From Apostichopus japonicus (taxonomy: Eukaryota > Echinodermata > Holothuroidea > Aspidochirotida > Stichopodidae): a stretch of DNA of 64,000 nt. The stretch covers positions 31,283,989 through 31,347,988 of the forward strand of contig NC_092572.1 of assembly GCF_037975245.1 (NCBI RefSeq), in the 5' to 3' direction. The translations under genes were made by a program, and so were the position numbers. The notes below the pieces were generated by a model. It searched no databases. It saw only the letters and a list, made by a program, of their open reading frames with translations, and was not told the origin of the DNA. Shown here piece by piece: positions 3,701 to 63,038 of the stretch (the stretch's first letter is position 1; every line of letters starts with the position of its first letter).

Positions 3701-6700
3701 ACGTCACTGATGTTGGATGTTCTCTGATCAGTTCATTATCTCATGGACTACTATTCTTGATCTGAGCATCGAAAACTCGACTATCATGAATTGATTTCTT
3801 AATTTAGTCCAATATTCGTTCCTATTTTAGTTGTTTCACATGTTTCATGAAGGATTATTGATAGTAAACTGATCGGTAATCTTACTGAGATATCATGATG
3901 TAAACTGATCAGCTACACTGTACTGAAATGATAATGGTAGTAAACTGATAAGATCAAAATTAAGGAATCAACCAAATTGATTACTCCGCTGATATGAAGT
4001 TATCATCGAGAACCAACATAAATTCGGTGAATATATTAATGATTTCATTCGAGACCAATAAAGATTAAGTATGCACTTATCATTTACATATCTCTCTTTT
4101 ATGTTTTTCATCAGTTTGGAATAATCTCGGCCGTCACAGGTATCGTCGTCTGAATCTACAAACCGGTCAATGGCAGGTAAGAGATTGTTCACCTTTCTTA
4201 CAGCTATTTCTCATAATGCAAGTCTGGTCAGCTTGTTTGCGTTATGCTGCCCTAGCTCTGTTTTCAGTCCCCAATAAATGTAAATAAATCAATATAGTGG
4301 TACATTATCTGTGCAGTTTACGTGTTGCCGGTAATATTAGAAGTTTTGCTGTAAAGAAAGAACTGTCATAAATCTTCCCGCTCCTACTTCCATGGGGTGG
4401 GGGGGGGGGTGTAGAGAGCCAACTCTCATCTTTCCTGGCGTGATTTTGGTAAAATAAAGTATCATGTTTTCAAGGTCCTTATCTCCCCTTTTGCGGTTAA
4501 GTTTGCTACCAGCAGATTGTAGCAAAAACAACACAAAGTGCAGAAGCTAGAAATATCCATGATAGCACTATACCTTGCTAATAAATTAAAATAAGGAAAT
4601 AGAAAGAAACTCTGTAGTAGTATGCATATACTTCAATCCGCTTCGTTGTTTTGTTGTACGGATACCATGGTAACCAAAACATATGCAATCATTTGATAAA
4701 ATATGAATATAAGACAAATATTCATATTATTTCCAGCGTGTATTGAATAGACACAAAAATACATACATTAGACGATTTTGAAGCAGTCAGGATCCGAAGG
4801 GGGGGGGGGGTGGAGTGCATGGAGTTGCTCCAACTACGATATAGTCGGTAACCGGTAATCTGTTTTAAATATTTCTAATTTGTCATCCGGTAATTGTATT
4901 TTAATAATTATCTTAAAAGAGTTAAAGATATGCTGTTGCGACACTTGGACATTCCAGCCTCAATCATTCCTGATCATTAGTGTCTAGGATGGGGTGGAGA
5001 GTTGAGGGCGCCAAATAATAGAGGAACAACTCACATTAACTTTTGCATCACGTTTATTCCAAACGTAGAAACAAACTTTTAAAAATCTGGAAGTGTACAG
5101 AAATACATATCTTTAAAATATAATTTTTGAGATAAAATTCTGTAAGTAATTTACGAGCATCGGTATGATAATTAACAACCGAGGATATCATTTCAATATT
5201 TAGTAGAACACTAATAGCTTGTATGATTTTGAAACAACATAATTGACATAACCGTCGTAGCTAAACGTTCCCAACATACCACTACTCTCTTAAAATGAGA
5301 GACTGAAATTTCAGTCTAATCGACTGAAATTTCAGTCTAATGATGGATGGGATAAGGGATCAGACTACTTAGACTGAATTCCAGTCTGAAATGTAAAGAC
5401 TGAAGGTCAGTCTTAATTAGACTAAATACTCTTCAGTCTAATAGACTGAAAATCAAACCACTTTAGACTGAACAGTCAGCAGTTTAGACTGATTTATTGC
5501 AGCACCAGTCTTAATAAGATTGAATACTTTCAGTCTATAAGACTGATATCAGACTGAACAGTCGGTCCTTTAGACTGAATTATTACACATCACAGCTATA
5601 CTGTCAATTTTATAAATTGCAAATTCTGGATTGAACAAGCTTTTCTATAGATCCTCCGTGTTGGCTAAGTGCTGGAATTCTTCAGTAAAGATGCAGTTAA
5701 GGTCATCAAGACAACATTCAATGATCTGTTAATGCAGGGGAATTTACTGAAAGGTGCTACTTCATGGAGTGACTTCACCTTCACATCCAATCATGTTAGG
5801 CTATAAAGACCAGAAAATCATTGTGACAGTCACACACAAAGTACATTAAAAATGGTATTCCATCAAGAAATATAATTGTCAATATCCACCGAACAGTAAT
5901 TTTATTCCCACTAACCCACTTATATATTCTTATATAATTTTTAATATATTAAAAAAAAAACAGAAATCAAAACTACAATATTCTGAGGGATGTTCAACAA
6001 AACATGTTATCTTTGCAACAAACGTTCAAATTATAAAGATACTTTACATAACAGTGACATATTTTCAGTTCAATATTAATCTGTCAAATTTCTGCTTGAA
6101 TTGGGCCTGGATCTAAAATGTTCTTTAATTTTTTTGGAAAGGATTAGGTGAGCTGAGAACAGATCAGTGGTGTCGCCAATGGGTGGCCTGGGGAACCCCT
6201 CCCCCGAGAAGGAATTCACAAATAGACATATCACCAACCAAGATTCAAATGTCTGGCAACACCACTGTAACAGAAAGCACTTTAAATTCTTTGTATGTCA
6301 CCACCAGGTGGTAATACCCTGGAATTCATTGACAACACAGCTGTAAATTGAGTGGTTATATACCCAGCTGATCCCATCTCCCGATCTCACTGAACTTTAA
6401 ATTTTCCACTGTAAAGGATATAGTAACTATACGATCCTGCCTTTACAAAAGGGATAGGATGGAAACACGACGATAGTACAATGGATCTGGTACATTGCCT
6501 TTTTTCCAGTTGTAAATCATTAATGTATAGTAGCAACAATTTTCTTAGAATGATTTCAAAATGGGGAAAACATATGACAAATTTTCAGCAGGTTATTTAT
6601 AAAATATTAGGAATGGTCAAACTATATATCAGTGCGGTGAACATTTAATACTTTGTGTTTCAATGATATAGATTGGCGATTGCTGAAAGTCATTATCCAG

Positions 6701-9700
6701 CACACACAAAACAAAATGTTACAAGCAAGCAGTTGACAGAATGGCACAAACTTCATAATGGCTATTAGATAAACATGAACTATTATATACTGCATTCACG
6801 ATTTCATGATATGGCATTCATATAAAGCAAATTTGTATGCAAAAACAGTACATGTGACTATTATACCACCCTCAATTATTTCTTAACTTTCTGATAGTAA
6901 TCATATATAGTGATTTTGATTGGGATTTCAATCAAATTTTAAAGTTTTATAAATTATCTCACGTGAATCCTTTAATGTCGGCCTCTAGCTGAAAAAGAAA
7001 TGTCACTCGAGAGTGGACTAAAAAATTGAAAACAGTTTTGACTCATTACATCACTAAAATTTAAAAAAAATGGGGGGGGGGGGGGAATAATGAGGAAAGG
7101 ATATTCTCAAATGGAATTTTCTACAGTTACTGACTTTATAATAATCAGGTTACTTGCTTTTCATGGAACAAATTATGGAATATTGTGCACAATAAATAAT
7201 ATTAGCTTAATTAATTGCTTAATTAAATAAACCTTCAACATAGTGAGTGCAGTGAAATGTAGGAACATTAAAGTAAACATTAAAATAACATGCTCGAAAA
7301 ATCATACAACAAAGTTTTTTTGGCAACTAGGTGTTTGTTTAATTACATTCATAATTAGATCAGTATCATTAAAAAACATTTTTAAAAACCAAAAATCAAT
7401 TAAATATTTATTTCTGGAGCCCTCCCTATTCATATAAAACTGTTTGTAAACTCCGGGTAATCAATTTAACGTTTTAGGGTATGTGTTAGTTACTCCTTAA
7501 AGGCATTGAAGATTTGTCCCAAACAGCATGCAGCCATCTGAAAAAGTTAACTTTCTGTTGCTTGCAAGTGATGTTTGTTCGTGTCGCTAAAAAAGACAGA
7601 CAGTAATGAAACGTGATACCTTGATATCTTTAGCTGGACCTGAGATGTTCATCGCTGTATCGTTTATACACTGTAATGTGGGTATTGACCGTAGCTGTAT
7701 GTACTGACTGTACACTAGTGTCTAATTACCGATGGTAGCAAGCTGTGTTTGTATTTTCTGGGATCGATGGCAGTGTCTAACACTTCTGTTACACCTCATT
7801 CGAAACTAGGTCAGATTACCGGCATTAGACGTTCTTTTTGCGCGAGTCTTCACACCCTTTTAAAGCTACTCCATGCTGACACACGTGGTTCCGGACTACA
7901 GAGCAATAAAAAAGTAACATTCACTCCTTGAAGTAACTCCATGCTGGCTGCCCTTATAGATGTGGCATGGATACGGACGAGAGACTTCACTTCTGTTGGT
8001 TGCAAAATTCCATACACCATGGAAGCATGGAACTCACAAAACTAGTGTTGTAGAGGGGGAGCATAGTCTATGTTAAATGTATGTTCTACGCCTCTGTCCC
8101 AGCTGGAATGGCCAGTTTATCTGCCACAATGAAGAATTGTTTGGGGTTCAATTCTGGTCCGAGAGATAGGATGAAAGGCTGTCAATATTGTCCTTGTCTG
8201 CCCTGTGCTGCACTCTCAATATCTGTGCCCTCCTGTTTGGTGAAGATAAAAATAAATGTGATAAAGGACAAGCAATATGGTATAAATCAAAACATTCTTA
8301 AAAAAAGATATGTTGAGAGGTAGAGAGACTAGACTAGAATAATATTTAGGAGAGAATGGAGAAACAAGAACATGACTGGCATTGTACAAAGGAGATATAT
8401 CAATTCACGATAGGCAGCAATATGTCATCCATGGCGGGTGAGATGTGTTATGTGAAGGTGGATTCAAATTCAACCTAACATTTATGGGTTATCATGTTGA
8501 TTTTGGCAGGTACATGGTTACCAAGCAAGGTTTGTTGTTAGTTGTTTTCAGAAATTTCTCTTTTTAAGGATAAATTGTTCATGACATCTCCTGATTCCAT
8601 TACATCAGCATAGAAAACCAGTGAACAAGGAATATGATTTACATTATAGCCTACTGATTTCACTAATATGTCTATCTGCTTGTAAAAGAAACTGATTTCA
8701 TAACATTAGTGAATGGTAATATTACTGTAAAATCTTATAATAAAGACTGATGGCCCACTATATGTTTAATAAAATAACAAAAGCATACCAATTCTTTTCC
8801 AGTTTCCACATGATTTAAATACAATGGTAATGGTTTAACAGAATCGTGTTAGCTTCATGCTGTAATGGCTGTAGAAGTCACTACATTTTTTCAAATAATT
8901 AAGGGTGCTTACAATCTATGCATAATAGTACTGTGTTTTGCAATTTCTTGAGCATTATTATGTTCAAGTATTTGTTATGAGGTTAACCTAGCCTAGATTC
9001 ATTTGGGACGATCAAGTACATATTGCAGTCCTGACAAGCGTGCTTATTCGCCCGACGATTGGGTTCATATGCAGGACAGGCGGGCTAATTTGCCCAACGA
9101 TCTGGTACCGTGATAGCTTCATGCTGTAATGGCTGTAGCAGTCACTACATTTTTCAAATAATTAAGGGTGCTTACAATCTATGCATAATAGTACTGTGTT
9201 TTGCAATTTCTTGAGCATTATTATGTCCAAGTATTTGTTATGAGGTTAACCTAGCCTAGATTCATTTTGGGACGATCGAGTACATACTGCAGGACAAGCG
9301 TGCTTATTCGGCCGACGATCGGGTACATATGCAGGACAGGCGGGCTGATTTGCCCGACGATCGGGTACATACGCAGGACAGGCGGGCTGATTTGCCCGAC
9401 GATCGGGTACATATGCAGGACCGGCGTGCTTATTCGCCCGACGATCGTGTTAATAGGCCCCACCAATTATAACAACAGCCTAGGCCCTATTTGCTATAGT
9501 ACAGCCTAGCTAGGCCTACCTCGCGCACAAGCCTAGAATAACTAACGTTACGAACTGCCAAGCTTTTATTCTGTATTAATTGGAAAACAACAAAAAACAT
9601 ACATACATACCCTCGAACACTGTTATCACTTCTTCGTGGAAACCTTTATTTGTAAGAAAAGTTCTTAAAGACTCAGCCATTGCTAATTTATAACCTTTAC

Positions 9701-12700
9701 TCTAGCTTAGACATACGGTCGTCTGTCTCGTTCATGCCTAGCTGTGTGTACGGCGTGCGTACGTACAGTACAGCGAGTACCTGGCTAAGCGAAGAATATA
9801 GTAGTATATATGTACACAAGTTGTAGCGCTCGTTGTCACACTTATTTTTATGCGGCGTATTTGCAAGTTTTCGGATGACGTAGGCGCATTTCTGTTCTCT
9901 GATTGGATACATTTTTCAGTGGAATACAGAGACTGAAAATGGTAAGATGACATGCCACATGTGATTAGCTGATTGGTTAATAAAGTCAGTCCAAAACAGC
10001 GACTGAACGGTGTAACTGATAATACAGTCTAAGTAGAGTGTTTCTCAGTCTAAACTCAGTGTATAACACTGAAAAAAATTTCAGTCTCAAAGAAGACTGA
10101 ATTCTTCAGTCTAACATTTTAAGAGAGTATACATCCTCGTGAAACATTGGTATTATTCTTCTGAAACAAAACTTAGCTGTAGTAGAAATGAATGACATTA
10201 ACAAATATCTTAATCAAATAATTTGTTCACCTAAACTGCTTTAAGGAATGTACTGAAAATATCCCGCTTTTACTTCGCCGTCTCGGTGTACATTAAATAT
10301 GAGACCGTAGAATGTTGTCAATCATGTTGCACCGTTCTTGTTTATGTTCATTTAATTTCGGGGCTAATGCTCATCATAGCCAGGGACGTCGCTAGATGGG
10401 GGTGTGGAGTGTCTCACCTCCCCCGCCAACTTGGTAAAACTGACGATGAAAAATTGGAGTGCGACAGTCGGAATTTTCGACTGTCGCATTCTGAATTTAC
10501 CTAGGCCTATATTCATTTATTCCTGTGATTGTGAATGACCTAATAATTGAAAAATTTCTGTCAAAATTGACCTTAAATCTGTCATATTTACTACAATTTC
10601 TTTGCCACTTTGAGAAATTGGATCTCGCGATCCTTATACTCCACAATACAAAACTTAGTATGATTTTGAATACTCTAAAAAAAAAAACCTTGCCAGCTTC
10701 AATTCGGTTTATTTATGTACTAATATTGCTATTGGGTGGGTTGACCCTGTTCGCTTGCTGCAAGTAAATTCAGTATATATCAGGGACGTAGCCGTGGGGA
10801 GCAGTGGAAGTAACTGTCCCCCCACCCCCCATTTCAGTGTCGAAAAAAATGTTAAGAAACTGTTGAGTTCTTGCATGGTATTTTGTCAGTGCTCTTTTGA
10901 TCTTGAACACTCGTCAGCTCCGTTAACTCGATTGTAATCGTAGCAACAGTAGGGCCTACTGATTCAGCTACTTAGTTTGGCAGATGCAGTTAGGTAAATG
11001 TAGCCTATAGCCTATTACCAGCCTACAGTTGGCCACTGCGTAATAAAATGCATATAGTCTACCCAGAGCCGTATACGGCTCTGAGTCTACCTAACCTTAC
11101 TCGATGGAGAGTCACGAATCGTATGCACAACGACGAGAACAACAACGTGCGTTCTCATCCTTTATGATTCGTCACGAACAGCATGTCACGAAGCTAAGCT
11201 AGCAATCGTACGTGATACACGCTTCCTATAAATAATTATTACACTGCTAAATATGAAAAGTTCGATAGCTTCAAGTAAGTTCAGTATATATATTGTCTCC
11301 ATGGTATACAATTAATGTAGACGATAGGTGTAAGACTATTTTGGCCGAATTTAGACTAGAAAATATTTTATAGAAATAGCTCAGTGGTTATTTTTGTTCG
11401 CGGAATCGGGCCACATAATATTGTAGGCCTATAGGAGTAGACAATCATCTTCCTCAGAAGTAATGACCATTATTTTATTTTATTTTTTAAAAAGCATGAG
11501 ATTTACATCAAGGAGCAGTGAAAAAAGGTATTCGGGAATTGGCCTAAAATTTAACTTCTTGATGATTTCCTGCATTTTTCAAGGTTGCACTATCTTTAAA
11601 AATTATTGGGTAAATAATTTGGTATATTTAACATGTGGGCGATACTTAGTATGTTCCTTAACTGCATCCTCCCCGCCCTAGGGATATTTCCCGGCTACGG
11701 TTTCCCATTGGCAGAGTTAGACTAACGAAAATTGAATGTTGGAGCCGTTTACAGCTGTTCTATATGCGTATGGATGCCACGAAAATAGTACTAGTTTTAG
11801 TCACGGTTGTAGTTGTTTTATCTGCGAACTTTGTCTATTCATCTTAGAGCAGATTTAACTATCAGGTTATTAGTTAATACAGGTTGGCGTATATCGCCTC
11901 CGAATTTGTCCATATCGAATTTATATCAATAGGCCTACGTGAGAGCCACAACCACTGAAAATTGTATGTTTTTACAGTATGTTTTTATACTTATTTCTAA
12001 GCGCTCTATTGGTCCTTGACGAAGATGGTAGACAGATTGTTCATATTAGTGATAAACAGCCCGGCCGACCCACCCCCTCCCCCCCTCTCAAAAAAATATA
12101 TATTAAGCGAGCTAGGAAAAAACACATGATTTTTTGGTAATTCACTATTTTGTCGAATATAATTTGTTGGAAAAAAACAGTTTTCCCCCTTTGTTACATT
12201 AAAATAGCTTTTGTAGTTAGTATCCTATGTAGCCTTCAAGCAGATAACTTATGCTCAGTTGCTTACTTGCTAAACCAGAGTGATTAATAAGTTTGTGAAG
12301 TGAGGGCCAGTGGTACAAATGTATAATCATAATAAATAATATAAATACCTTATATTAAAGTGCTGTTATCATAAAATAAAACATGCACAAGAGCACTGTA
12401 CAAAGAACCAATACCTGGAATGTAAAATTACGAAATGTATGAAAACCTAAATGTAATAACAACAGCAATGAAAGTAAAACATGAAATAAGACAGGGTTAT
12501 AAACCACAATAAAGAATATAAAAACTGGGCACAGTAATGTGAATAAAACAATGAATTAGATTTATGCCCATACTCAAGCCTAAAAAGATAAGTTTTCAAA
12601 TGCTTCTTAAAAGTGTCGAAAAAAGTTCGGAACAAAAGTGCAGTCACCAAAGATGGGGTGTCTGACTGACACTGACCGTACCGTTAACGATAAGCCGGGG

Positions 12701-53871: not shown

Positions 53872-54318
53872 TACTCTCTTAAAATGATAGACTGAAAGAA
53901 TTCAGTCTTCTTTGAGACTGAATTTTTTTTCAGTGTTATACACTGAGCTTAGACTGAGAAACACTCTATTAGACTATATTATCAGTTACACCGTTCAGTC
54001 GCTGTTTTGGACTGACCGTATTAACCAATCAGCTAATCACATGTAGCATGGCGTCTTACCATTTTCAGTCTCTGTATTCCACTGAAAAATGTATCCAATC
54101 AGAGAATAGAAATGCGCCTACGTCATCCGAAAACTTGCAAATACGCCGCACAAAAATAAGTGACAACGAGCGCTACAATTTGTGTACATATATACTACTA
54201 TATTCTTCGCTTAGCCAGGTACTCGCTGTACTGTACGTACGCACGTCGTACACACAGTTAGGCATGAACGAGACAGACGACCGTATGTCTAAGCTAGAGT
54301 AGAGGTTATAAATTAGCA

Positions 54319-54385
54319 ATGGCTGAGTCTTTAAGAACTCTTACAAATAAAGGTTTCCACGAAGAAGTGATAACAGTGTTCGAGG
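54319..54385 (+). CDS. First coding exon of the element A protein, copy 2
   Basis: ATG opens MAESLRTLTNKGFHEEVITV and the exon runs to GAGG before the donor GTATGTGTG. Compared with copy 1 one codon is missing in the RTFLTNK stretch (RTLTNK here), which keeps the frame. The start of a SAM domain is inferred from the pattern and the link with the C-terminal exon. About 445 bp of promoter-sized sequence lies between the terminus and the ATG. Confidence 0.5.
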
Positions 54386-55740
54386 GTATGTGTGTAAGTT
54401 TTTTGTTGTTTTCCAATGAATACAGAATAAAAGCTTGGCAGTTCGTAACGTTAGTTATTCTACTAGGCTTGTGCGCGAGGTAGGCCTAGCTAGGCTGTAC
54501 TATAGCAAATAGGGCCTAGGCTATTGTTAAAATTGGTAACACGATCGTCGGGCGAATAAGCACGCCGGTCCTGCATATGTACCCGATCGTCGGGCAAATC
54601 AGCCCGCCTGTCCTGCATATGTACCCGATCGTCGGGCGAATAAGCACGCTTGTCCTGCAATATGTACTCGATCGTCCCAAATGAATCTAGCCTAGGCCTA
54701 GGCTAGGTGAGCCTCATAACAAATACTTTAGTTGAACATAATAGTGCTGAAGAAATTGCAAAACACAGTACTATTATGCATAGATTGTAAGCACCCTTAA
54801 TTATTTGAAAAATGTAGTTACTGCTACAGCCATTACAGCATGTTCAAGCTATCACGGTACCAGATCGTCGGGCAAATTAGCCCGTCTGTCCTGCATATGT
54901 ACCCAATCGTCGGGCGAATAAGCACGCTTGTCAGGACTGCAATATGTACTCGATCGTACCAAATGAATCTAGGCTAGGTTAACCTCATAACAAATACTTG
55001 AACATAATAATGCTCAAGAAATTGCAAAACACAGTACTATTATGCATAGATTGTAAGCATCCTTAATTATTTGAAAAAAATGTAGTTACTGCTACAGCCA
55101 TTACAGCATGAAGCTAACACGATTCTGTTAAACCATTACCATTTTATTTAAATCATGTGGAAACTGGAAAAGAATTGGTATGCTTTTGTTATTTTATTAA
55201 ACATATAGTGGGCCATCAGTCTTTATTATAAGATTTTACAGTAATATTACCATTCACTAATCTTATGAAATCAGTTTCTTTTACAATCAGATAGACATAT
55301 TAGTGAAATCAGTAGGCTAAAATGTAAATCATATTCCTTGTTCACTGGTTTTCTATGCTCATGTAATGGAATCAGGAGATGTCATGAACAATTTATCCTT
55401 AAAAAGAGAAATTTCTGAAAACAACTAACAACAAACCTTGCTTGGTAACCATGTACCTACCAAAATCAACATGATAACCCATAAATGTTAGGTTGAATTT
55501 GAATCCACCTTCACATAACACATCTCACCCGCCATGGATGACATATTACTGCCTATCGTGAATTGATATATCTCCTTCGTACAATGCCAGTCATGTTCTT
55601 GTTTCTCCATTCTCTCCTAAATATTATTCTAGTCTAGTCCACATCGAACTCTACCTCTCAACATCTCTTTTTTTAAGAATGTTTTGATTTATACCATATT
55701 GCTTGTCCTTTATCACATTTATTTTATCTTCACCAAACAG

Positions 55741-55887
55741 GAGGGCACAGATATTGAGGGCACAGCACAGGGCAGACAAGTAAAATATTGGCAGCCTTTC
55801 ATCATATCTCTCGGAACAGAATTGAACCCCAAACAATTCTTCATTGTGGCAGATAAACTGGCCATTCCAGCAGGGACAGAGGCGTAG
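55741..55887 (+). CDS. SAMD3-like C-terminal exon fragment in element A copy 2
   Basis: After the acceptor TTCACCAAACAG the frame reads EGTDIEGTAQGRQ, then YWQPFIISLGTEL, then PKQFFIVADKLAIPAGTEA and a stop at 55885-55887. It aligns with element B's last exon (KQPHLLAIGSNV, LQQFFVVLDGVALPV), where the frame continues for some 60 more residues. Here the homology ends at the stop, so the domain is truncated. The intact tryptophan codon distinguishes this copy from the one at 8086-8232. Probably no functional protein results. Confidence 0.55.
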   Translation, partial: EGTDIEGTAQGRQVKYWQPFIISLGTELNPKQFFIVADKLAIPAGTEA

Positions 55888-56089
55888 AGCATACATTTAA
55901 CATAGACTATGCTCCCCCTCTACAACACTAGTTTTGTGAGTTCCATGCTTCCATGGTGTATGGAATTTTGCAACCAACAGAAGTGAAGTCTCTCGTCCGA
56001 ATCCTTGCCACATCTGTAAGGGCAGCCAGCATGGAGTAACTTCAAGGAGTGAATGTTACCTTTTTATTGCTCTGTAGTCCGGAACCACG

Positions 56090-56468
56090 TGTGTAGCTTT
56101 AAAAGGGTGTGAAGACTCGCGCAAAAAGAACGTCTAATGCCGGTAATCTGACCTAGTTTCGAATGAGGTGTAACAGAAGTGTTAGACACCACCATCGATC
56201 CCAGAAAATACAAACACAGCTTGCTACCGTCGGTAATTAGACACTAGTGTACAGTCAGTACATGCAGCTGCCATCAATACCCAAATTACAGTGTATAAAC
56301 GATACAGCGATGAACATCTCAGGTCCAGCTAAAGATATTAAGGTATCACGTTTCATTACTGTCTGTCTTTTTTAGCGACACGAACAAACATCACTTGCAA
56401 GCAACAGAAAGTTAACTTTTTCAGTTGGCTGCATGCTGTTTGGGACAAGTCTTCAATGCCTTTAAGGA
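56090..56468 (-). mobile_element. MITE 'CTTAAAGGCATTGAAG', nested in element A copy 2
   Basis: Reverse complement of the MITE at 7494-7866, with TIRs GCTTTAAAAGGGTGTGAAGA at the left and CTTCAATGCCTTTAAGG at the right. It occupies the same internal position as in copy 1. Confidence 0.6.
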
Positions 56469-57685
56469 GTAACTAACACATACCCTAAAACGTAAATTGA
56501 TTACCCGGTGTTTACCAACAGTTTATATGAATAGGGAGGGCTCCAGAAATTATTTAATTGATTTTTGATTTTTAAAAATGTTTTTTAATGATACTGATCT
56601 AATTATGAATGTAATTAAACAAACACCTAGTTGCCAAAACAACTTTGTTGTATGATTTTTCGAGCATGTTATTTTAATGTTTACTTTAATGTTCCCACAT
56701 TTCACTGCACTCACTATGTTGAAGGTTTATTTAATTAAGCAATTAATTAGGCTAATATTATTTATTGTGCACAATATTCCATAAATTGTTCCATGAAAAG
56801 CAAGTAACCTGATTATTATAAAGTCAGTAACTGTAGAAAATTCCATTTGAGAATATCCTTTCCTCATTATTCCCCCCCCCCCCATTTTCTTTAAAATTTT
56901 AGTGATGTAATGAGTCAAAACTGTTTTCAAATTTTTAGTCGACTCTCAAGTGACATTTCTTTTTCAGCTAGAGGCCGACATTAAATGATTCACGTCAGAT
57001 AATTTATAAAACTTCAAAATTTGATTGAAATCCCAATCAAAATCACTATATATGATTACTATCAGAAAGTTAAGAAATAATTGAGGGTGGTATAATAGTC
57101 ACATGTACTGTTTTTGCATACAAATTTGCTTTATATGAAAGCCATATCATGAAATCGTGAATGCAGTATATAATAATTCATGTTTATCTAATAGCCATTA
57201 TGAAGTTTGTACCATTCTGTCAACTGCTTGCTTGTAATATTTTGTTTTGTGTGTGCTGGATAATGACTTTCAGCAATCGCCAATCTATATCATTGAAACA
57301 CAAAGTATTAAATGTTGACGGCACTGATATAGTTTGACCATTCCTAATATTTTATAAATAACCTGCTGAAAATTTGTCATATGTTTTCCCATTTTGAAAT
57401 CATTCAAAGAAATTGTTGCTACTATACATTAATGATTCACAACTGGAAAAAAGGCAATGTACCAGATCCATTGTACTATCGTCGTGTTTCCATCCTATCC
57501 CTTTTGTAAAGGCAGGATCGTAAAGGTTACTATATCCTTTACAGTGGAAAATTTAAAGTTCAGTGAGATCGGGAGATGGGATCAGCTGGGTATATAACGA
57601 CTCAATTTACAGCTGTGTTGTCAATGAATTCCAGGGTATTACCACCTGGTGGTGACATACAAAGAATTTAAAGTGCTTTCTGTTG

Positions 57686-57790
57686 CAGTGGTGTTGCCAG
57701 ACATTTGAATTTTGGTTGGTGATATGTCTATTTGTGAATTCCCTCTTGGGGGGGGGGGGTTCCCCAGGCCACCCATTGGCGACACCACTG
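57686..57790. mobile_element. 105-bp MITE nested in element A copy 2
   Basis: The ends are CAGTGGTGTTGCCA and TGGCGACACCACTG. It is the counterpart of 6165-6267. Its internal G-run has grown compared with copy 1, which has CCCCTCCCCCGAG there. Confidence 0.55.
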
Positions 57791-58379
57791 ATCTGTTCTC
57801 AGCTCACCTAATCCTTTTCAAAAAAAATTAAAGAACATTTTAGATGGCCCATTTCAAGCAGAAATTTGACAGATTAATATTGAACTGAAAATATGTCACT
57901 GTTATGTAAAGTATCTTTATAATTTGAACGTTTGTTGGAAAGATAACATGTTTTGTTGAACATTCCTGAGAATATTGTAGTTTTGATTTCTGTTTTTTTT
58001 GTTTGTTTAATATGATAACGAAAATTATATAAGAATATATAAGTGGGTTAGTGGAAATAAACTTACTGTTCGGTGGATATTGACAATTATATTTCTTGAT
58101 TGAATACCATTTTTAATGTACTTTGTGTGTGACTGTCACAATGATTTTCTGGTCTTTATAGCCTAACATGATTGGATGTGAAGGCGAAGTCATTCCATGA
58201 AGAAGCACCTTTCAGTAAATTCCCCTGCATTAACAGATCATTGAATGTTGTCTTTGATGACCTTAAATGCATCTATATTGAAGAATTCCAGCACTTAGCC
58301 AACACGGAGGATCAATAGAAAAGCTTGTTCAATCCAGAATTTGCAGTTTATAAAATTGACAGTATAGCTGTGATGTGTA

Positions 58380-58670
58380 ATAATTCAGTCTAAAGGACCG
58401 ACTGCTCAGTCTGATATCAGTTTAATAGACTGAAAGTATTCAACCTAATTAAGACAGGTGCTGCAATAAATCAGTCTAAACTGCTGACTGTTCAGTCTAA
58501 AGTGGTTTGATTTTCAGTCTATTAGACTGAAGAGTATTTAGTCTAATTAGGACTGACCTTCAGTCTTTACATTTCAGACTGGAATTCAGTCTAAGTAGTC
58601 TGATCCCTTATCCCATCCATCATTAGACTGAAATTTCAGTCGATTAGACTGAAATTTCAGTCTCTCATTT
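58380..58670. repeat. Subterminal AGACTGAA/TTCAGTCT array, element A copy 2
   Basis: The counterpart of 5288-5590 in reverse order, with the same irregular packing of AGACTGA and TCAGTCT in both orientations up to the terminal CTCATTTTAAGAGAGTA. Confidence 0.65.
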
Positions 58671-58680
58671 TAAGAGAGTA

Positions 58681-59246
58681 ATCGATTTATCGGTACCGCA
58701 CAATCGATTTATCAGTACCGCACATTCGATTAATCGGTTTCGTAAATTCGATTTATCGGTATCGCACATTCTATTTATCGGTATCGCACATTCGACTTAT
58801 CGGTAGCGCACATTCGATTTATCGGTACAGCACATTCGATTTATCGGTATCGCACATTTGATTTATCGGTACCGCACATTTGATTTATCGGTACAGCACA
58901 TTCGATTTATCGGTACCGCACATTCGATTAATCAGTTTCGTAAATTCGATTTATCGGTATCGCACATTCGATTTATCGGTATCGCACATTCGACTTATCG
59001 GTAGCGAACATTCGATTTCTCGGTACCGCACATTCGATTAATGGTTATCGCACATTCGATTTAAAGGTATAGCATAATCGATGTATCGGTATCGCACATT
59101 CGATTTATCGGTCACGCGCATTCGACTAATCTGTATCGCACATTCGATTTATCGGTATCGCATATTCGATTTATCGGTACCGCACAATCGATTTATCGGT
59201 ACCGCACTTTTGATTTATCGGTACCGCACAATCGATTTATCGGTAC
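58681..59246. repeat. 22-bp satellite between elements A and B
   Basis: About 25 units of CGATTTATCGGTACCGCACA plus TT, with variants GGTATCGCAC, GGTAGCGCAC and TTAATCAGTTTCGTAAA. A block of units (58721-58830) recurs at 58921-59020, so a higher-order pattern is present. It starts at the last base of element A copy 2 and ends at the first base of element B. Confidence 0.85.
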
Positions 59247-59415
59247 TACACTCTAAAAACTGAAGTGCTAATTTAGTAGCTCCAACACGGTGCTAGTCAT
59301 CAATTAGCACTTTAAGAGCTAGTATCTCAACCTTCAAGTGTTAAATAACTTGCACCATACCAAAGTGCTATCGCCGCAGTTGTGTCGCACTGCACTTGTT
59401 AAGTGCTGAAAGTTT
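59247..59415. repeat. Subterminal AAGTGCTAA motif array of element B
   Basis: At least seven copies of AGTGCTA, TTAGCACTT or close variants (AAGTGTTAA, GGTGCTAG, TTAAGTGCTG) lie in both orientations within 170 bp of the terminus. The layout parallels the AGACTGAA arrays of element A with a different motif. Confidence 0.5.
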
Positions 59416-60658
59416 CGTATTAACTTTTGATTGGCTGAAGGCGGTGACGTCAGTAACATGCAACAACGCTATTGGTTATAACCAAATAGTTGCATATCGC
59501 ATCGCTAGACGTGACAAGTGACGAACGTTCCACCGGCAGACGTAAGTTTCTGAATTGAAATCTGTGAATATTCTCCAGAGTAAGGAATATTTGAAAGCTG
59601 ATATGGCGACCTTTCATGAAATTTGAGTGATCATTCATGTTTTCAATAACCTAGCTTTGCTGATGACGTCGGGAATTTCCTTCAAATAATACCTCTGTCG
59701 ACGTCTTAGTGATGGTAGCCTACCACTTATTTCATAGGTCTATTCACGTATGTAAATGCCAAATGCACTCTGATATAACATTAGGCTATGCCAAGTTTAT
59801 GATTGGGCGTATATAGGCCTAGCCGACCTCCTTATTGTAACATTTATAAGGCCTAACTTTATGGCCGCAAATGGCGATTCGATTGAGGTGTACTACTGGT
59901 CCTACAGTCTACTGCGTTTGCACAAGTGGCCATCACAGAGTCTTAACGTATAAGAGAGGCAGGCCCAATGCAATAAGTATTGGTATTGGTTTATATGCCA
60001 ATGCCTAAAGAATATGAGCCGATGGCCGCTAGACGACCACAAGAGAACGTTTTGGACGGCCTGTCACTCCATATTACGCTTTGAATTTGTGGTAGCCTAG
60101 CCTAGGTCTAACATTATTGTGGTAACAGGGCTAACGTTGTGTTGTTAATGTTACTTTGCAGTGTAAGGTCTGTGTGTGATTGCCAACTACAAAATGAAGT
60201 AGCCTACAAAGTACAAGTACAAACCATACTTCACAGTCATACATTATTCAGGTTTAAAGAAAAATTAAAGTAAATGTAAAAATAAAATAATGATCAGAGT
60301 AATTGTATACATCCTATTCTTATTTGACCTTCATAGTGTTTCCCATATTTCATGCATCGCTTAATGTTGTGTACCCTAATTGTTTGCACCTAACAAGGAA
60401 GGCCTACTATAAGTATCTTTTCTTTTGAAATGATGACTCCCAATGTAAATATGCTTCACTTAAGATGTTCTGTCATGGAAAGTGAAAGACTATAGGTAGG
60501 CTTAATTTTCCAATTAATTTGAAACAAATTTAGGTGAAACTTTAAACATGCTTTTTTTTATACTGTTTATAGACTCAAGCTTTTGCAGAAAAATGAAAGA
60601 AACCTGACATGTTTTGGGATTCATTGCATGTTTTCTTGTTCTATTCTTTTACTTGTAG

Positions 60659-63038
60659 ATTTTGCAAGACTTTGAGCAGATGTATGGAGATCAGGTCGCC
60701 AATAACTTTTTGATGAAATGGGAGGGTACATTCCCGCTTCATTTGGAAGTACATAGCATGTACTCACCAACTCAGCTCTGCGGGACCTTCGGTTTGAATT
60801 TGAAGAAACAGAAAAGTCTGAGGGTATGTTTCAAAAAAGTGCTAACATTTTGTAGTCATGTGACTCTCATTGTGCAAGTTCAGTCAAGTTTTCTGTAGTG
60901 AATATTTGGTGTGTTAGCTCTTTAAAAGACTGCTATAGGTGAAATCATGTACAGAAAAGTGGCAATGCTGTTAACAGTTTGTCTGGTACCCAACTTTCTT
61001 TAAACATACATGGAAGAAATGAATGAAAGTGATTAAACTAAAACTGAATTACATTCCAATCTAGATTTTGAGAAGACTTAAGTTCTGACACCATAGAAGC
61101 TGGTGGGTGCTTATGTGATTGGTGGGCATCTACCTGTCTAACAATAGTTCATTAAGTGGTATTATCTCCTGCAGTCTTATGTGAATTTTCAAGTACTGGA
61201 GCTAACTTGGCTAAACTGATCCATGGGAGGGGACCCATCACGAATGTATCCAAAAATTGAGGTCAAAGATCATTTAAGTGTCAATTCAGGCTGCAGCGTG
61301 TGAATCAAAAATAGCCAGATCATTATCAGATTGCTCGCAAATTGTTGAAATCAGTGGATTAAAACTTGTATCCAGATTTCAGATCAAAGGTTATAACTAT
61401 TGGGTCTAAATTTGTAGCCAGTTCTTAGGCCCATTCACTAAAATTGATTAAGCTGGCAATCCTGTTCACTTTTGCTTTAATTCCAGCTGTGGAGTAAGGG
61501 TAAACTGAAGGAAATTTGTTTCTTGAGCCACGTACTGTTAAAGCGCTGTGGGTGGAGGGGTGTGTTATTATTCTAGAAACATTCTAGAACCAATGTTGTA
61601 AGTCTGGTGGTGTAGGGTTGTACCTGTATAGCCACTTGCTTGGTTCATTCATTGATACAAGTTACTGTACCACTTGATGCCTTAGTTTCCTCCATCCAAC
61701 AGTGTATTCAATAAGCAAAAGTATTAATTTCCTGGCCTAACCAATTTCAATTATAGAAGAATCCCAGAAATCCTTCAGTCTTCCACCATATTTATTTTAG
61801 TGACTTTGAAAAGACCTATAACTGTGAAATTGACATAGGCCTATGTAATTGGGTTCAGTGGACATAAAAGTATATCAGAATGTTTTTTTTTTTTTTTGGC
61901 ATGCAGTGCCTATGTGTAATTTGTATATTGCAATTTCTAGAGCAAGTAGTAGGAACAAACAATTACTAACTGACACGTCACACTATTTTGTTGACATATA
62001 CATCTGTTTTGTTGAGATATGTAATCTGTTTTTATGTTTTTCATTATTAAGAAACTTTTCATTTTCTTCTTTAGAACATGCATCCAGGTACGGTCTCTTT
62101 GCATTGGTTCACCTATTGCCATCTTTCAACACAAGGAAAAGTAGAAAATGCAGTCGAGATGACAATGTCCGTTACTTCATCGCCTGGCAACCAGTAAGTT
62201 GTTTTGTGTGTTGAGTGGGAAAGATCTGCCAAAATTCATGCAGAGTGATCAATCTTTAACCATTTGAGCCTAGGGGATATTGGTACTGACATTCTGTCCT
62301 CTAGGCCTCAGCCCCTTGGCTCAATCTGTGCTGGGCGGTCCAGGTAGGTGCTCTTATTAAATGTGTCTTTCCTTCAGGAGATAAGAGTCAACCACATAAA
62401 ACTATCTGATCCAGATGTGGGTTATTGTAGACTATTCTGTACCTGAGCCAGATAATCCTGTATTATATATCAAGTTATATTTGCATATTTTTGTAGCTGG
62501 TTAGTTATTAATATGGATTTTATATTTGGTTAAAATATGGCACAAGCCAGGCAGCAGTTCAGGCAAGATACATAATAGTACGGTTAGTGATGCAAGCAGG
62601 ATGTGAAGTAATTGTCAGCTGGACTAGTTGAAGTTTTCAGAGGTTACTAGAGAAATCGGCACTATTTTGGAAATTAATGCATGAATTAATTTCCTTTCTT
62701 CTTAGATCGGAACAAATGTGGAAGAATATGCAAAGAAAAGCCAACTCAGCAGAAAACAGCCACACCTCTTGGCCATTGGAAGCAATGTGACTGACTTGCA
62801 GCAGTTTTTTGTAGTTCTGGATGGAGTTGCCCTACCTGTTTCCAGGCAAGCATGTGGAATTGTAGCAGCTACAGATATTCTAATGAAAGTTCATTATGTT
62901 TTTATTGTAGCATATGCGGTGCAGCTCACAGATTTCTACACCTTTATCCAAACTGTGGTGTATGGCATACCTCCATCAGGTCAAAAGATAAGTAATCGTG
63001 TTAAGGAGATAAGGATTGCTTTGCAAAATGTGGAGTAG
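60659..63038 (+). CDS. SAMD3-like protein, C-terminal half, spliced gene in element B
   Basis: Exons: 60659-60823 (acceptor CTTTTACTTGTAG, donor GTATGT), 62075-62193 (acceptor TTCTTCTTTAG, donor GTAAGTT) and 62706-63038 ending in TAG. The first reads LQDFEQMYGDQVANNFLMKW and continues; the second contains YGLFALVHLLPSF and YFIAWQP; the third IGTNVEEYAKK, QQFFVVLDGVALPV, TDILMKVHYVFIVAY, FYTFIQTVVYGIP and NRVKEIRIAL. This order of motifs matches, from memory, the C-terminal part of proteins annotated as sterile alpha motif domain-containing protein 3-like, which are multicopy in fish and echinoderms and of unknown function. The first two exons do not join in phase: one extra base is needed. 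A 13-base candidate exon at 61487-61499 would supply it. Upstream SAM exons are not visible. A donor at 59541 may end a 5' UTR exon, with ATG at 60680 as start. Confidence 0.6.
61487..61499 (+). CDS. Candidate 13-bp micro-exon of the element B gene
   Basis: CTGTGGAGTAAGG is bounded by TTTAATTCCAG and GTAAAC. It starts in phase 0 and ends in phase 1, exactly what is needed between the flanking exons, giving LWSK then E with the first bases of the next exon. Phase fit alone is weak evidence. Confidence 0.2.

Follow-up and report, generated by a model that had tools for sequence, protein, structure and literature searches.

SAMD3-like exons within terminally inverted DNA elements of Apostichopus japonicus and their association with a CACTA-like transposase

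Background

Why should two repeated DNA elements with similar ends both carry exons of the same SAMD3-like gene, a kind of gene that is elsewhere annotated as belonging to the host? This question is raised by a stretch of 64,000 bp from the sea cucumber Apostichopus japonicus (assembly GCF_037975245.1, contig NC_092572.1; C12:31283989-31347988 in our coordinates, hereafter the window), in which element A is present in two copies and element B in one, each bounded by terminal inverted repeats (TIRs). A first-pass annotation of the window had proposed that SAMD3-like genes are cargo or machinery of a DNA transposon group. Searching the whole genome (671.6 Mb, 35 contigs), we found larger elements in which SAMD3-like exons lie beside a transposase between matching TIRs, which agrees with the proposed residence of these genes inside transposons; the choice of machinery rather than cargo is one that we infer. 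We put at roughly three in four the probability that A and B are non-autonomous derivatives, representing two families of one cut-and-paste group of the CMC (CACTA/EnSpm-Mirage-Chapaev) clade, in which the SAMD3-like protein acts as a TnpA-like, end-binding helper. The TIRs, an empty site, homology to Transposase_21, same-strand linkage, the intron-1 layout of an element on contig C14, subterminal repeats and a recent amplification of A are documented below at the level of sequence.

CACTA-type transposons with a second protein are a known kind, and what appears to be new is the SAMD3-like gene as that second gene: no paper tying SAMD3 or a SAM domain to transposons, EnSpm or domestication appeared among the titles and abstract openings searched, a body of literature that mostly leaves out subscription journals and does not include Repbase Reports. 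The label "SAMD3-like", along with the N-terminal SAM domain and multicopy nature attached to it, follows the first-pass annotation and the usual description of these proteins, and we use it as an assumption.

Results

Complete elements combine a transposase and SAMD3-like exons. The termini of the C14 element are identical to those of A and lie 14.9 kb apart, enclosing a first SAM exon (L011:713), a transposase frame of 852 aa (L011:4078-6633), a second SAM exon (L011:7149) followed by further exons, and a C-terminal exon (L012:3208-3525). Exon 1 ends in GAGG|GT and exon 2 starts with AG|AAAATGAT; because the two exons flank the transposase frame and their phases agree, the transposase lies within intron 1 of the SAMD3-like gene. 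The peptide of exons 1 and 2, spliced by us in the agreeing phase, matches Pfam SAM_1 with an E-value of 3.2e-10 and 40.7 bits, passing the cut-off of 23, and thereby supports the earlier reading of the ATG exon of A, its counterpart, as the start of a SAM domain. The C1 element (L051/L052) has B-type termini 12.3 kb apart, which enclose a transposase frame of 847 aa and a PB1-like exon. A third family (L055, L060) measures 5.3-5.5 kb and has the TIRs TACTCTCTTAATTCG; L055 shows the start of SAM exon 1. Full copies with both TIRs, holding transposase as well as SAMD3-like exons, thus exist in the C14 and C1 elements. The transposase had escaped the first-pass annotation, which advised checking the SAMD3-like protein for a nuclease fold; this protein is no nuclease candidate but the product of a second gene that accompanies a DDE transposase of CACTA-like type.

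An additional transposase of 917 aa occurs in a 25.5-kb locus on C16, where an A copy harbors a nested element of 20.6 kb with CACTGTTAAAAA at its ends (L013-L015, joined positions 4226-24846). This transposase was considered as A's own and ruled out, as the junctions mark a separate element; it belongs to the same group, at 25% to that of C14. A four-row alignment showed by eye a likeness between the middle region of the nested element and that of the SAMD3-like gene, for which tblastn gave no supporting match, and the nested element is therefore not counted among the two-gene elements.

The association extends across the genome. Using the C14 transposase as query, 53 places were scored of 408 candidates, with 29-100% identity, a frame of >800 aa in 45 and no internal stop in 46. 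Within an interval of -4 to +15 kb, 28 of the 53 have a C-terminal SAMD3-like exon (24 downstream, 4 upstream), as taken from the matches to the C1 exon (150 scored of 362 candidates). All 28 pairs lie on the same strand, whereas 500 random placements gave a mean of 0.2 and a maximum of 3. At three loci (C12:19953594-19956349, C5:10757430-10760185 and C7:4675947-4678700) the C-terminal exon precedes the transposase frame, by about 20 bp in two of the three, and therefore the gene order is reversed there or both genes are fused.

Conversely, when starting from the C14 C-terminal exon (150 matches scored of 650 candidates), 74 of the 150 lie near a listed A terminus, a B terminus or a transposase, compared with 0.46% of random points; this test, like the pair counts given below, rests on the first 100 of 141 A-terminus matches. 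From the other 76, two loci were fetched (L055 and L060), both TIR-bounded and of one family. The expectation that SAMD3-like loci carry such ends is thus supported for the 74 near a terminus or transposase and for these two, and among the 74 unread matches there may be SAMD3-like genes that have no such ends.

Families of the group have similar TIRs and different subterminal motifs. For each family, the commonest 7-mer in the outer 400 bp at both ends was compared with 200 shuffles. AGACTGA occurs in 17 copies in A and 18 in C14 (shuffle maxima 6 and 6), and AAGTGCT in 9 copies in B and 12 in C1 (maxima 7 and 5), both motifs being nearly absent from the interiors (1-2 copies). On the forward strand of the window, AGACTGA/TCAGTCT has 5 sites in the left subterminal region of A (53872..54271) and 12 in the right (58281..58680), and AAGTGCT has 4 in the left subterminal region of B (59247..59646), with 5 more at its right end beyond the window.

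Could the SAMD3-like gene be captured host cargo, a regulator or a factor for escape from silencing, with no part in cut-and-paste? Such a passenger would suit the 25 of 53 group transposases for which our search returned no C-terminal exon, as well as the frequency of SAM domains in host proteins, among them our matches to ANKS3, bicaudal C and tankyrase. It would also have a precedent in the TET/JBP dioxygenase genes that many transposon lineages are reported to have taken up (Kojima 2025, PMC12730594). However, the linked transposases range from 31 to 100% in their identity to the query, always in the same orientation, the exon is carried by three TIR families whose subterminal motifs differ, and a recent single capture is therefore unlikely. 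The codon positions likewise speak against a mere passenger: differences at first, second and third positions number 35/24/61 over 102 codons between C14 and L055, and 35/24/70 over 107 codons between B and C1, and this third-position excess between families indicates selection on the SAMD3-like protein. The counts were used alone, because synonymous divergence (dS) is saturated. We consider the passenger role improbable, at odds of a few to one, and favor the helper role.

The transposase points to the CMC clade. On an alignment of four transposases, including that of the nested C16 element, we assigned the D, D and E positions and found D311, D406, C425-x2-C428, H639-x3-H643 and E663 to be invariant, which places C(2)C and H(3)H between the second D and the E. 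At the N-terminus, all four share positions of CxxC..H type that look finger-like by eye. When a profile of five members was compared by hhalign with three Transposase_21-type proteins from this genome, the probability was 99.5 and the E-value 4.4e-23 over 408 columns, as against an E-value of 0.53 for a control with reversed columns. Single Pfam scans gave weak evidence: C14 matched DUF4218 (E 0.26) and a C7 member matched Transposase_21 (PF02992; E 1.9e-5, under the curated cut-off), and the scan of the C1 and F7 transposases returned nothing relevant. Mirage elements duplicate TA at their target. According to PMC12730594, CMC(T) clade members duplicate 2-5 bp of target, TA in the case of ESTA, and their DDE transposase has C(2)C and H(3-4)H after the second D and before the E. 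The group studied here fits this clade, including the duplication of 2 bp within the 2 to 5 bp range. It departs from EnSpm/CACTA proper in its duplication, which is 3 bp there, and in its best PF02992 scores (27.5 bits in the genome search, 24.4 in hmmscan), which stay under the cut-off of 28.6. The TIRs are short, of the form C(A/T)CT(C/G)T(T)AA; as to the 5'-CA..TG-3' termini usual in CMC(T), the first two bases are CA in B, C1 and the nested element and CT in A, C14 and the third family.

An ISL2EU-like origin had been guessed from the TA duplication and was dropped once the transposase matched Transposase_21 proteins. More generally, the group could belong to another TA-duplicating superfamily, such as ISL2EU/PHISTA or Tc1/mariner, the latter of which also duplicates TA. 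PHISTA does so as well (PMC12730594). The match to Transposase_21-type proteins across the catalytic region, the C(2)C and H(3)H motifs and Pfam rows free of Tc1 or Harbinger domains render such an assignment very improbable, and we retain the CMC placement. In a side observation, transposase frames at C10:15936399, C12:21006700, C16:30104233, C20:32819630 and C21:11205813 form one family with equal scores and no stops, which suggests that this family moved very recently.

Element A in the window is a non-autonomous, recently spread element. Copy 2 (53872..58680, forward strand) measures 4,809 bp from TIR to TIR, including the target TA at both ends, and copy 1 (5283..10129, reverse strand) 4,847 bp; their end-to-end alignment has 94.7% identity. 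The left TIR of copy 2 (53872..53887, forward) consists of the target bases TA followed by CTCTCTTAAAATGA, and the right TIR occupies 58665..58680 on the reverse strand. The exact terminus TACTCTCTTAAAATG is found in the window at 5283, 10115 (reverse), 53872 and 58666 (reverse). Allowing three mismatches within the window alone gave 8 matches against a shuffle mean of 4.6, which is within chance, and the window evidence for the ends therefore rests on the four exact matches. Genome-wide there are 68+73 exact matches, compared with 1+1 for the reversed control pattern, and among those listed 43 facing pairs were formed, 40 of them spaced 4.4-5.4 kb apart. The earlier description of A and B as TIR-bounded repeats with similar ends holds in this respect, and equally for B with its TIRs of 14 bp. 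Over their last 1.7 kb, 14 A copies differ by 0.24-3.9% from the majority sequence (copy 1 by 0.24%, copy 2 by 2.6% in its 3' 1.7 kb), from which element A appears to have amplified recently. Copy lengths vary partly through a tandem repeat of about 265 bp. The interior of A is also tied to a separate site in the window, 2435-2783 being 84% identical to 56117-56467.

Element B starts at 59247 on the forward strand and runs through the end of the window (64000) to 64522 (L029:522), giving 5,276 bp. Position 63038, at which it had previously been taken to end, is the stop of its last exon. Its left TIR (59247..59260, forward) consists of the target bases TA followed by CACTCTAAAAAC, and a 25-base pattern of the left end, with up to 2 mismatches, matches 25+15 places in the genome (control 0+0). 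B sits in a 22-bp satellite, GATTTATCGGTACCGCACATTC, which fills 58684-59246 between A and B and resumes beyond the window through much of 14 kb (L029/L030).

Both elements hold parts of the SAMD3-like gene, as a comparison of the window with exons of the C14 and C1 elements shows. A copy 2 has exon 1 with the first part of the SAM domain (54319..54385, forward; donor G|GTATGT), which matched with an E-value of 5e-6, and its last exon (55741..56036, forward; E 1.5e-24) is broken into pieces in different frames, 55741-55875 and 55890-56036, with a TAG at 55885. In copy 1, both on the reverse strand, exon 1 (9611..9680) is 78% identical to that of C14 (E 3e-8), and the last exon (7937..8232; E 1.3e-23) is broken in the same manner with one extra stop. 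B contains, on the forward strand, two internal exons with splice sites, at 60659..60823 (62% over 21 aa to a C1 exon) and, reading LVHLLPSFNTRK, at 62075..62193 (62% to a C1 exon), and, at 62706..63038, the conserved C-terminal exon, whose frame stays open as far as its stop and which matches C14 (E 1.6e-12) and C1 (54%, E 1.9e-32). The three match C1 exons in the same order with E-values of 1.2e-6, 9.8e-13 and 6.8e-37, and the C-terminal exon is shared by A and B, as had been noticed at first. By these matches, the two exons of A and the three of B are what is left of a multi-exon gene that has a SAM or PB1-like N-terminus and a conserved C-terminal exon, the latter without a Pfam family over the cut-off. 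That host SAMD3-like genes were repeatedly hit by unrelated DNA transposons, leaving their exons as chance fragments, would be in keeping with the window A copies, which retain the first and last exons only, but is the least credible account. Two elements enclose SAMD3-like exons together with a transposase within matching TIRs, all 28 linked pairs share a strand, and the two fetched SAMD3-like loci that lack a nearby transposase are TIR-bounded all the same.

The target duplication is 2 bp, mostly TA, in the group of A and B. TA flanks all 15 A copies of which both ends were read, which is no test of duplication, because the search pattern included TA. Empty sites are nonetheless present, as the transposon reading had anticipated. 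Rejoined with one TA, the A flanks of the nested C16 insertion agree exactly, over 82 of 82 bases, with 6 of the 14 A copies examined; for the remaining 8, identity is 97-99% or the matching stretch is shorter. The L020 copy of A lies inside a U2-snRNA-like array, whose intact units read GTGTAGTATC with a single TA, and the register of the 22-bp satellite around B is preserved with one TA. The flanks at L020 are themselves a tandem array of units of about 39 bp resembling the 5' part of U2 snRNA. Third-family copies carry CA on both sides in one case and TA on both sides in another, and the two flanking bases therefore belong to the target; four B-end matches show CA or TG for TA, each observed at a single end.

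Discussion

SAM and PB1 domains are head-to-tail polymerization modules. Complete members of the group carry, on one strand, a DDE transposase gene and a multi-exon SAMD3-like gene. We hypothesize that the SAMD3-like protein binds the repeated subterminal motifs, fulfilling the role of TnpA in maize Spm/En, and that it polymerizes through its SAM/PB1-type domain, which would bring both ends into contact for the transposase. Proteins of this kind would then mobilize A and B in trans. According to PMC2613891, the tnpD frame of Spm/En lies inside intron 1 of the 11-exon tnpA, TNPA binds subterminal repeats, both proteins are needed, and TNPA-like proteins of different elements have little similarity. 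As the C14 layout equals that of Spm/En, the SAMD3-like protein is proposed, by analogy, as the TnpA counterpart.

Several observations weigh against this scheme. A is no direct deletion of the C14 element, to which its last 476 bp are 98% and its first 160 bp 73% identical; given this difference between the ends, A derives from a sister of C14. The PB1 match of the C1 exon is weak (below the Pfam cut-off, with E 0.005), exon 2 of family F7 (L053/L054/L062) is SAM-like yet gave no Pfam match, and the five transposases scanned singly were below the Transposase_21 cut-off or unmatched. The third-family motif AGATTGA, with 18 copies, is near its shuffle maximum of 15, and the rejoined satellite unit of B departs from its neighbors at two bases. 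The exon lies upstream of the transposase at 4 of the 28 linked loci, and the 25 transposases for which the search found no C-terminal exon are all 29-32% identical to the query; in these, the exon may have diverged, or the second protein may be a different one or be missing. In one of them (C10:15936399), middle exons and an exon 2 of SAM-like appearance are visible by eye, and tblastn gave one match there (E 0.011). Furthermore, end binding could instead fall to the fingers of the transposase.

If the proposed scheme is true, genes annotated as "SAMD3-like" host genes would belong to transposons in this genome, and perhaps elsewhere too, and CACTA-like elements outside plants would gain a TnpA counterpart. 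The open frames and equal scores of some transposase copies suggest recently moved elements amenable to assay. More tentatively, and with the odds somewhat against it, the SAMD3-like family including vertebrate SAMD3 might have begun as the second gene of this transposon group, encoding an end-binding, self-polymerizing protein with exchangeable SAM and PB1 domains, SAMD3 being a domesticated descendant; this would provide a testable source for the vertebrate gene. A viral contig collection searched with an alignment of four transposases, and a genome contig collection searched with the C14 transposase, yielded no confirmed relatives; these collections are made up of viruses, bacteria and archaea.

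How does this group compare with known systems? In contrast to the host annotation of SAMD3, the gene is found here inside TIR-bounded elements together with a transposase. With Mirage and ESTA the group shares the TA duplication and the C(2)C and H(3-4)H motifs between the second D and the E; the ESTA families described in PMC12730594 carry a TET/JBP gene, whereas the present elements carry a SAMD3-like gene. The likeness to Spm/En (PMC2613891) comprises short and similar TIRs, subterminal repeats that vary between families, two proteins, a transposase frame in intron 1 of a multi-exon gene, and deletion derivatives that retain the ends. It differs in that CACTA elements duplicate 3 bp instead of the 2 bp seen here, that the present transposase scores under the Transposase_21 cut-off, and that its partner, which would correspond to TnpA by layout, has a SAM or PB1-like domain.

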